Positions 14,867 through 23,247 of a stretch of 31,591 bases of DNA are shown piece by piece. The stretch lies in the IMG/VR virus record IMGVR_UViG_3300046007_008112, positions 1-31,591 of that record. One strand, 5' to 3'. Below the pieces are notes generated by a model, which saw only the letters and a program-made list of their open reading frames with translations, did not search any database and had not been told where the DNA came from. Source of the DNA: a virus. Position 1 is the first letter of the stretch, and each line of letters opens with the position of its first letter. Made by a program: the position numbers and the translations under genes.

Positions 14867-15029
14867 GGACGAAAAAGGCCGACTCACTGTTGTTTGCGAG
14901 ACAGTTGGAAGGTGCGAGAACAGTCTGGATCTGGGCTGTCAGGTCATGGCCAACCTGATCGACGTGGCCGAGGATAACCCCGGCTACGTCGCGGTCCAGC
15001 ATCTCACCTACTCACAAGATTGGCAATGA
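14820..15029 (+). CDS. Small hypothetical protein (69 aa)
   Basis: ATG 14820 is my choice; ATG 14784 in the same frame would lengthen the overlap with the preceding gene. The sequence MNKPPTHSRFSIHIHEDEKGRLTVVCETVGRCENSLDLGCQVMANLIDVAEDNPGYVAVQHLTY reads as a beta hairpin plus helix. The stop overlaps the start of the PAPS-reductase-like gene, so the two are coupled. Confidence 0.55.
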   Translation: MNKPPTHSRFSIHIHEDEKGRLTVVCETVGRCENSLDLGCQVMANLIDVAEDNPGYVAVQHLTYSQDWQ

Positions 15030-15865
15030 GCGATCCATTCAAAATCAACGGCCCCACTTGCATCAGTTTCAGTGGGGGCAGAACAAGTGCGTACATGCTT
15101 TGGCGCGTACTGCAAAGCAACAATGGGTTACCAAACGACGCCGTTGTTTGCTTTGCCAACACTGGCAAGGAGGATGAGGCGAAGCTTCGCTTTGTGCAAG
15201 ACTGCGCCAGCAATTGGCAAGTCAACATTACTTGGCTTGAATACAGGGATGGAAGTCAATGGTCTGTTGTTGACTTTGAGAAAGCAAGCCGAAGTGGTGA
15301 GCCGTTCGAAGCCGTAATCAGGCAGCGAGGCGGGTACCTTCCAAATCGGGTTGCCAGATTCTGTTCAAGCGAATTAAAGACTCGCACCATGCACAGATAC
15401 CTAAAGGCGCAGGGCTGGGAGGACTGGGACACATTCATAGGAATTAGAGCCGACGAGCCGCGCAGGGTTGCAAAGTTTCGCGCCAATCCACGGCCAGAAT
15501 ACAAAGGTGAAGAGGTTCATATGCCGCTGGCAATATCCGGGGTGTCGTCCAAAGATGTTGGTAGTTTTTGGCAACAACAACCTTTTGACCTTCGGCTTCC
15601 GAACATTCAGGGGAAGACGATGCACGGCAACTGCGATCTGTGTTACCTAAAGCCAGCAAGCCAAGTGCTATCTCTGATTACGGAGAAACCAGAACGCGCA
15701 GTATGGTGGGCTATGCAAGAAAAAAGGGCCGAGGCATTTGCTGTCGCCGCGGCTAGATTTCGTGACGACAGGCCTTCATACGCGCAGATGGCTGAGTTTG
15801 CTGCCCAGCAAAAGGACATGTTTGACCCCTCCGAAGAGGGTATTGCTTGTTTCTGCGGGGATTAA
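15026..15865 (+). CDS. PAPS-reductase-like PP-loop ATP pyrophosphatase
   Basis: The 279-residue protein begins MSDPFKINGPTCISFSGGRTSAYMLW. The PP-loop SGGRTS at 16-21 is the nucleotide-binding signature of the adenine-nucleotide alpha-hydrolase superfamily. CFANTGKE follows, then FCSSELKTRTMHRYL, FIGIRADEPRRVAK, GNCDLCYLKP (a CxxC) and a C-terminal CFCGD. These are the usual stations of phage PAPS-reductase-like proteins. True PAPS reductases reduce activated sulfate. Phage members lack a proven function; some relatives act in DNA phosphorothioation or base modification. I use ATG 15026, not the upstream TTG. The gene ends tail to tail with the primase, overlapping 4 bases. Confidence 0.82.
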   Translation: MSDPFKINGPTCISFSGGRTSAYMLWRVLQSNNGLPNDAVVCFANTGKEDEAKLRFVQDCASNWQVNITWLEYRDGSQWSVVDFEKASRSGEPFEAVIRQRGGYLPNRVARFCSSELKTRTMHRYLKAQGWEDWDTFIGIRADEPRRVAKFRANPRPEYKGEEVHMPLAISGVSSKDVGSFWQQQPFDLRLPNIQGKTMHGNCDLCYLKPASQVLSLITEKPERAVWWAMQEKRAEAFAVAAARFRDDRPSYAQMAEFAAQQKDMFDPSEEGIACFCGD

Positions 15866-21789: not shown

Positions 21790-21868
21790 CGAAACACAGC
21801 TATCAGTGAAGACCATCTTCCTGATCATTACGGCGTCGAGTCTGGTGAAGGAGAAGGTGAAGCCATGA
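21782..21868 (+). pseudogene. Truncated copy of the small membrane-peptide gene
   Basis: ATG 21782 overlaps the previous stop. The 28-residue product MSDETQLSVKTIFLIITASSLVKEKVKP matches the first ~16 residues of the 23303 gene (MSDETEMSVKTIFLII) and then diverges, losing the membrane segment. At DNA level the first 14 bases and a later 21-base block (AAGACCATCTTCCTGATCATT, 21810-21830) are identical in both copies. Its stop overlaps the methyltransferase ATG. It looks like a leftover from a duplication that brackets the methyltransferase gene, now serving perhaps as a leader peptide. Confidence 0.65.
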
Positions 21869-23247
21869 GATTCGGATCAGTATGCAGCGGCATTGAAGCG
21901 GCCTCAGTAGCGTGGCATCCACTTGGATGGCAAGCTGCGTGGTTCTCGGAGATCGAGCCGTTTCCCAGCGCGGTGCTGGCCCACCACTACCCTGATGTCC
22001 CCAACCTTGGAGACATGACACTACTGCCAGAGCGCATCCTCTCGGCTGAGGTCGAGGCACCAGACCTATTTTGTGGTGGCACACCATGCCAAGCCTTCTC
22101 GGTGGCCGGTCTTCGTAATTCTCTGGACGATGCCAGAGGCAATCTTTCACTCATATTCGCAGGTATCGCAAATGCAATTGACCATGTTCGATCTGTTCGA
22201 GGAGACGATCCGGCAATCATCTTCTGGGAGAACGTCCCAGGAGTCCTCTCAACCAAAGACAACGCATTCGGCTGCTTTCTTGCAGCACTTGCCGGGGAAG
22301 ATGATCCGATCATCCCATCAGGGGAAAAATGGACAAACGCAGGTTGTGTGTATGGTCCCCAAAGAGCAGTCGCGTGGCGAGTCCTTGACGCCCAATATTT
22401 CGGAGTGGCCCAACGACGCCGTCGTGTGTTCGTTGTCGCAAGTGCTAGAGCAGACTTTGATCCCGCAGCGGTTCTTTTTGAGTTCGACGGCCTGCGCCGG
22501 GATACTGCGCCGAGCAGAGAAGCGGGGCAAAAGCCTGCCCCTTGCGTTACAAACGGCCCTCCTTTCAGTCGCACAGGCAACGAAAGAGTAGAGGCTGAGG
22601 CTATGGTGGTAGCCGTACGAAAGGTTGCTTTAGGTGAATACTTGGATGATGGCGTTGCCAGCACCATGAAAGCTAGGGACTACAAAGAGGCAACTGATCT
22701 GGTGGCACAAACTTTTTCAATCCCAGCAATTGGGCACATTGTTAAAGATGATGTGGCAAGCACCATGACAAGACACACTGGTAGTGGATCTGGAGAAACT
22801 CAAAACCCTGCATTTGTGGCGCAGCCAGCCTACGCAATCCAAGGCAGCATGATCGGTCGCAACGACAATGCTAGCCCGCAAGGTGATGGCATCAATGAAG
22901 AAGTATGCTTTACGCAGAACACAATTGATCGCCATGCAGTGGCGCAGCCAATCGGTTGGGACGAGGAGTTGAACGCCAGCACCGAGCAGTCTGGAACCCT
23001 GCTGCGCGGCGGTCAGGGCGGTCGCCATGATGGCGTCATGACATCGACCATGCAAGTGCGCCGTCTTACGCCAGTTGAGTGCGAACGCCTACAAGGGTTC
23101 CCCGACAACTACACCAACATCCCTTGGCGCAAGAAAGATGAGTCGCCTGATGGCCCACGGTACAAGGCGCTGGGCAACTCATGGGCGGTGCCAAATGTCA
23201 GATGGATCGGCCAACGGATCGCAGAGCATTTGAAAGCCCATCCCTAA
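21865..23247 (+). CDS. dcm: C5 cytosine-specific DNA methyltransferase
   Basis: The 460-residue protein has the standard motif series: motif I FGSVCSGIEAASVAW (3-17), motif IV GGTPCQAFSVAG with catalytic Cys75, motif VI WENV (121-124), motif VIII QRRRRVF (183-189), motif IX RRLTPVECERLQGFPDNYT, and motif X ALGNSWAVPNV near the end. The target-recognition part (about 200-390) is long and repetitive (VASTMKARDYK and VASTMTRHTG; VAQP twice). It would methylate phage DNA to evade host restriction. No partner nuclease is seen, so it is an orphan. A second open frame (22172-22591) is nested inside it. Confidence 0.9.
   Translation: MRFGSVCSGIEAASVAWHPLGWQAAWFSEIEPFPSAVLAHHYPDVPNLGDMTLLPERILSAEVEAPDLFCGGTPCQAFSVAGLRNSLDDARGNLSLIFAGIANAIDHVRSVRGDDPAIIFWENVPGVLSTKDNAFGCFLAALAGEDDPIIPSGEKWTNAGCVYGPQRAVAWRVLDAQYFGVAQRRRRVFVVASARADFDPAAVLFEFDGLRRDTAPSREAGQKPAPCVTNGPPFSRTGNERVEAEAMVVAVRKVALGEYLDDGVASTMKARDYKEATDLVAQTFSIPAIGHIVKDDVASTMTRHTGSGSGETQNPAFVAQPAYAIQGSMIGRNDNASPQGDGINEEVCFTQNTIDRHAVAQPIGWDEELNASTEQSGTLLRGGQGGRHDGVMTSTMQVRRLTPVECERLQGFPDNYTNIPWRKKDESPDGPRYKALGNSWAVPNVRWIGQRIAEHLKAHP
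22172..22591 (+). CDS. Gene nested in the methyltransferase, +1 frame (139 aa)
   Basis: This frame is open from 22073; I start at ATG 22172 (MQLTMFDLFEETIRQSSSGRTSQESS), with ATG 22184 as the alternative. It overlaps methyltransferase residues 103-242 completely. The C-terminal half reads LTPNISEWPNDAVVCSLSQVLEQTLIPQRFFLSSTACAGILRRAEKRGKSLPLALQTAL. I recognise this as a recurrent phage protein pattern (SSSGkTs-----, then iseWpn----cSLs-iLE---iP-ryfLs--AC-GILRRa-kRGK-LP--L--AL), normally met next to or within cytosine methyltransferase genes. That reading, plus its length, argues against a shadow frame. Ribosome-binding evidence is weak. Function unknown. Confidence 0.6.
   Translation: MQLTMFDLFEETIRQSSSGRTSQESSQPKTTHSAAFLQHLPGKMIRSSHQGKNGQTQVVCMVPKEQSRGESLTPNISEWPNDAVVCSLSQVLEQTLIPQRFFLSSTACAGILRRAEKRGKSLPLALQTALLSVAQATKE

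Follow-up and report, generated by a model that had tools for sequence, protein, structure and literature searches.

Several described systems bear on a C5 cytosine DNA methyltransferase (MTase) gene that carries a second reading frame. M.EcoHK31I and M.AquI are natural C5 MTases that work with a second small polypeptide (PMC3404938). The beta gene of M.EcoHK31I is known to overlap the alpha gene in another frame. The hidden HNH endonuclease ShiLan is encoded by an unannotated, out-of-frame gene within mycobacteriophage DNA methylase genes, where it occurs sporadically as a homing insertion containing an HNH domain (PMC11855218). In eukaryotes, the C5 MTase DNMT1 is brought to new DNA via the sliding clamp, using a PCNA-binding motif within the enzyme itself; the bacterial clamp-binding consensus is QL(S/D)LF (PMC9690074). 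Established overprinted genes of phages and other viruses are likewise nested on the same strand in another frame (reviewed in PMC8227390). Rz/Rz1 is the textbook overprinted pair, and in dsDNA phages there are few established cases of long overprinted genes on the same strand that rest on strong evolutionary evidence.

The window analysed here (the whole stretch of DNA, 31,591 nucleotides) is a contig of a tailed phage and encodes a terminase, a portal, a helicase, a ParB-like protein, an exonuclease and a Sak-like annealing protein. An auxiliary metabolic gene, phosphoadenosine phosphosulfate reductase-like (PHROG 424), is present at 15020-15865. Motifs I-X of the MTase are all found in one frame (GSVCSGIEAASVAW, PCQ, WENV, QRRRRVF, RRLTPVECERLQGFP and YKALGNSWAVP). 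The original prediction, made from the sequence alone, was that a +1-frame gene of 139 residues lies inside the MTase at 22172-22591, that it encodes the peptides SSSGRTSQESS, ISEWPNDAVVCSLSQVLE, IPQRFFLS and ACAGILRRAEKRGKSLP, and that the same DNA specifies MTase residues 103-242, including WENV and QRRRRVF. All of this held: the coordinates were exact, the four peptides were present in the translated product (MQLTMFDLFEETIRQSSSGRTSQESS...NISEWPNDAVVCSLSQVLEQTLIPQRFFLSSTACAGILRRAEKRGKSLPLALQTALLSVAQATKE), and the nested ORF covers MTase codons 103-242 with motifs VI-VIII, within the catalytic core (Table 1). In the window the +1 frame is already open from a GTG at 22073; most homologues have stops between the equivalent position and the ATG, but the ATG itself is common to them. 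A 226-codon antisense ORF (21987-22667, minus strand) also runs across the overlap region.

Table 1. Positions in the window of the MTase gene, the nested gene and their parts.
Feature	Position	Strand	Details
C5 cytosine DNA methyltransferase (MTase)	21865-23247	+	460 aa, complete; PF00145 E 5.5e-36, TIGR00675
AGGT, Shine-Dalgarno-like site	22161-22164	+	7 nt upstream of the nested ATG; seen in the sequence
Nested +1-frame gene	22172-22591	+	139 aa, conserved ATG start; stop 22589-22591
Clamp-binding-like peptide QLTMF, nested residues 2-6	22175-22189	+	Consensus QL(S/D)LF (PMC9690074)
Nested Ser/Thr-rich middle, probably disordered	22190-22374	+	AlphaFold pLDDT about 42-55; four-fold difference 0.33-0.60 (weaker constraint)
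Most constrained stretch, nested NISEWPNDAVVCSLSQVLE..IPQRFFLSSTACAGILRRAEKR	22375-22530	+	MTase four-fold difference 0.02-0.17 (viral set)
Predicted nested C-terminal helical hairpin, residues 105-136	22484-22579	+	Block pLDDT 85-92 (AlphaFold)

The locus differs from each of these systems. The second polypeptide of M.EcoHK31I or M.AquI carries MTase motifs (IX, or IX-X), whereas the MTase here is complete; no MTase motif was found in the nested protein, and motif IX lay within the same MTase-frame ORF in 353 loci. Unlike the ShiLan element, the nested gene is overprinted on a conserved catalytic core, occurs in almost every close homologue, and gave no HNH match in Pfam, PHROG or PDB. It therefore belongs to neither class. 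The likeness to DNMT1 is one of analogy, and the clamp-binding motif, in DNMT1 part of the enzyme, would here sit on a separate overprinted protein whose binding to the clamp is untested. Established overprinted genes occupy other host genes, and the nested MTase gene is spread over phages of several bacterial phyla. We found no prior account of this overlap in the open-access literature searched; subscription papers were outside the scope of the search.

We conclude, without expression data but with near certainty, that 22172-22591 is a genuine second gene for a protein, overprinted on the MTase's catalytic half. It starts from its own ATG, in most cases has a ribosome-binding site to itself, and purifying selection acts on it at the protein level. 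The selection tests quoted below rest on homologues picked by MTase residues 1-69 only, which lie outside the nested gene (80 viral and 80 bacterial-genome loci); sets selected by the nested sequence are biased. Nearly all of these homologues contained an open nested stretch of ~140 codons with a shared start and a shared C-terminal motif. When MTase synonymous codons were drawn randomly from each gene's own usage, the N part was expected to be free of stops in 17-25% of homologues and the C part in 31-42%; the observed values were 99-100% and 95-96%, respectively. Upstream and downstream of the nested ORF, the same +1 frame of the MTase homologues was full of stops.

The start of the nested ORF was analysed in 150 homologues that had not been chosen for this position. 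The aligned position read AAT, GAT or CAT with a G directly after it in 142 of them, corresponding to ~95% retention of the ATG. The Asn and Asp codons used here ended in T in 141 of 143 cases, compared to 40% elsewhere. A Shine-Dalgarno 4-mer was found upstream in 80 of the 142 homologues (~56%), about four times the 18.8 +/- 3.7 (maximum 27) expected from synonymous randomisation; typical contexts were GTGGAGCTTGCAG-ATG and GTAGGTATCGCAA-ATG.

Constraint on the MTase codons was monitored at four-fold degenerate sites where two homologues have the same amino acid. In the viral set, the four-fold difference was about 0.65 in the N- and C-terminal regions of the MTase and 0.22 over the nested C part. 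In ten-codon windows it dropped precisely where the nested ATG lies (codons 101-110), reached 0.174, 0.044, 0.096, 0.170 and 0.015 over codons 171-220, and was back up at 0.71 past the nested stop. The genome set showed the same profile with more noise. In the overlap, MTase first positions, which are third positions of the nested frame, varied more than they did in the N-terminal region, the pattern that a +1 overlap predicts. MTase third positions were frozen only in the overlap and free elsewhere, which rules out a mere echo of MTase conservation.

We then applied an OLGenie-like count of site classes, restricted to 9-mers with a single differing base. In the C part the nested dNN/dNS ratio was 0.13 for the viral and 0.30 for the genome set, and in the N part 0.23 and 0.49, respectively, compared to 0.48-1.14 for the same frame in control regions. 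These ratios are supportive rather than precise, since the SS classes were small and SN/SS was erratic. Relative to the N-terminal control, substitutions silent in the nested frame and changing the MTase were enriched 8-18 times in the viral set and 4-5 times in the genome set, an excess that fits protein constraint and not an RNA or DNA element. The homologues are related, and hence the counts are not independent. Two outcomes had been named in advance as refuting the gene, stops in the nested frame of most close homologues and a nested dN/dS near 1. Neither was seen, with the frame open in 95-100% of homologues and the C-part ratios lying below those of the controls. The original prediction had allowed two readings, true overprinting and a selectively maintained family that arose by frame confusion; overprinting was supported, and frame confusion is ruled out.

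The same +1 ORF was present, unannotated, in dmt of phage P1 (locus L001 2815-3288; about 66728-67201 of the record) and in MTases of Enterobacter, Pseudomonas, Vibrio, Streptococcus, Mycobacterium (Omegavirus), Ruminococcus and Brevundimonas phages, so that it spans phages of Proteobacteria, of Firmicutes, gut Firmicutes among them, and of Actinobacteria. Matches in tblastn were also obtained in Akkermansia, Pseudanabaena and Caulobacter phages. P1-type DNA occurred in 517 of 5,426 complete E. coli genomes (about 10%), mostly on P1-like plasmids, and every E. coli match listed was annotated as a methyltransferase only. The nested ORF was not detected in the more distant phage MTases of Cerulean, Miro, Gohan, Andrew, 121Q and Leonard, and only partly in that of Javan374. 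All 426 nested loci lay in the +1 frame of an MTase; 14 did not show a simple PCQ/ENV pattern, apparently owing to contig ends, motif variants or frameshifts. The claim that the nested frame encodes a recognisable stand-alone phage protein was not supported, as no MTase-free copy was found among the 426 loci or by tblastn in phages and plasmids. The only annotated nested-frame product that we found was a partial one, Thibault gp104, whose MTase is broken up by an HNH element.

Two subclasses were distinguished. In subclass A, to which the window belongs, the nested ORF begins 30 codons after the PCQ motif of the MTase, and in subclass B it begins about 10 codons before it. The four-fold difference of the codons around PCQ was 0.52-0.53 in subclass B against 0.59-0.69 in subclass A, a modest but consistent internal control.

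Some loci were irregular. An HNH endonuclease element breaks the MTase, and hence also the nested ORF, in Mycobacterium phages Schatzie and Thibault (L350, L352). Four Pseudomonas genomes (L184, L192, L200, L225) carry ALAGIARRDGRRS.. in place of the nested C-terminal motif, possibly due to a shared rearrangement that cuts both frames. In two Pectobacterium genomes (L221, L223), both the MTase and the nested ORF are disrupted by frame changes within one shared part, so that the N-terminal MTase sequence runs into the nested C-terminus; this could be decay or recoding. Directly downstream of the nested ORF, the Haemophilus-type loci L228 and L372 have poly-G tracts of G7 and G8, respectively, and are otherwise near-identical there. 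In the longer form the MTase is split and its C-terminal half is joined to the nested frame, as also in L366, L103 and L142; phase variation or sequencing error could each account for the length difference. A domain fusion of the nested protein with the MTase C-terminal half in L103, L142, L366 and L372 was discounted, the frame switch being at poly-G tracts. Arthrobacter Andrew gp43/gp44 and Mycobacterium Cerulean gp81/gp80 were rejected as split MTases without the nested domain. The methylase halves of Andrew (L357 1501-2650) lie in different frames with a 239-nt overlap, a separate split-MTase arrangement.

Sequence searches with the nested protein found no family in Pfam, NCBIfam or PADLOC (0 families) and no match in PDB. 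Fold searches against PDB and BFVD gave nothing significant; a phage MTase and Thibault gp104 headed the BFVD list. PHROG_16143 (139 positions) matched residues 67-105 of the window protein weakly, and 49 of its 85 members matched the nested protein (best E 9.2e-6). We infer that this family was probably built from nested-frame annotations; it carries the name 'DNA methyltransferase', has no function assigned and is not recognised as an overlapping gene. AlphaFold, run with 81 sequences, gave low confidence overall (mean pLDDT 61, pTM 0.35) and over the first ~90 residues, and a confident C-terminal hairpin. The model thus predicts a mostly disordered protein ending in a helical hairpin. Invariant and near-invariant residues were concentrated in the C part.

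Of 204 non-redundant nested proteins, 95 had a pentapeptide of the QL[SDTE][LMF]F or QL[TSD][LMF]F type among their first 26 residues. In 100 randomisations of MTase synonymous codons with the ATG kept, the mean was 0.6 and the maximum 2. A looser form was present in 28 of 74 clusters below 60% identity. These counts use all loci, including those selected by the nested sequence, and the 95 sequences are related and not independent; the counts per cluster and the occurrence at two MTase positions answer this only partly. Subclass B proteins also begin with such peptides (QLTFL, QLDLF, QLSIF, QLTLW), several of which end in L, W or S and not in F. Subclass B encodes the peptide from MTase codons that are not homologous to those used in subclass A, which makes it unlikely that the resemblance to the bacterial clamp-binding consensus was inherited from the MTase sequence. 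About 60% of clusters lacked the pentapeptide, including the P1 (QLTTN), Xanthomonas-type, Pasteurellaceae, Streptococcus and Ruminococcus forms, and clamp binding is therefore not a universal function of the family.

Our main reading, which is inferred without binding or expression data and to which we give a probability of about 0.4, and so hold as more likely wrong than right, is that the nested product is a small accessory protein that tethers MTase action to the replisome. Ribosomes would initiate internally on the MTase mRNA, and a mostly disordered protein of roughly 140 residues would be made beside the MTase. The conserved C-terminal hairpin may bind the MTase or the MTase-DNA complex, and in lineages that have it the N-terminal QL[TSD][LMF]F may dock onto the host sliding clamp at its peptide pocket. 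In this way the MTase would be recruited to newly replicated phage DNA, resulting in methylation and protection from host restriction. Binding to the MTase is inferred solely from strict cis-linkage, which overprinted genes tend to show anyway.

The rival that survives best accepts the gene and takes its product to be an accessory or regulatory subunit of the MTase, acting in folding, specificity or control of activity, with an N-terminus that resembles QLTMF and is no clamp ligand. This is possible. The cis-linkage (426/426), the existence of two-polypeptide C5 MTases and the peak of conservation in the C-terminal half, and not in the N-terminal peptide, are in its favour. However, it leaves unexplained the large excess of QL[TSD][LMF]F at two different MTase positions. 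We consider it unlikely that the product acts independently of the MTase, for instance as an anti-defence or replication-hijacking peptide on the host clamp. The protein is small, mostly disordered (as predicted), phage-encoded and equipped with a clamp-like peptide, and the toxin SocB attacks the clamp via the same motif (PMC9690074). However, one would expect a free-acting gene to have duplicated and moved elsewhere, and neither an MTase-free copy nor a PADLOC match was obtained. Programmed frameshifting from the MTase frame, which would yield a truncated MTase with a nested-frame tail, could account for constraint being strongest in the C half of the ORF; it is very unlikely given that the N half is also devoid of stops in nearly all homologues and that the internal ATG and Shine-Dalgarno site are conserved. 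An RNA or DNA element (a regulatory structure or homing site) or codon bias in an untranslated frame, for which only the HNH elements of related mycobacteriophage MTases speak, is all but excluded, as constraint tracks nested codon positions (the third MTase position is frozen and the first is freer), the C part has a low dN/dS, the ATG and Shine-Dalgarno site are kept and the boundaries match the ORF.

A bolder form of the tether reading can be entertained as a possibility, namely that an overprinted gene shared across phyla encodes a separately translated link between the MTase and the replication sliding clamp. It might then be a two-frame counterpart, in bacterial viruses, of the DNMT1-PCNA link, overlooked in many phages and prophages.

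The nested gene represents a protein family without a name, passed over by gene finders in favour of the longer frame, and the overlap is a strong natural case of one stretch of DNA under two protein constraints. Phage methyltransferases are standard counter-restriction tools, and a partner protein for the MTase, if true, would alter how these enzymes are understood.
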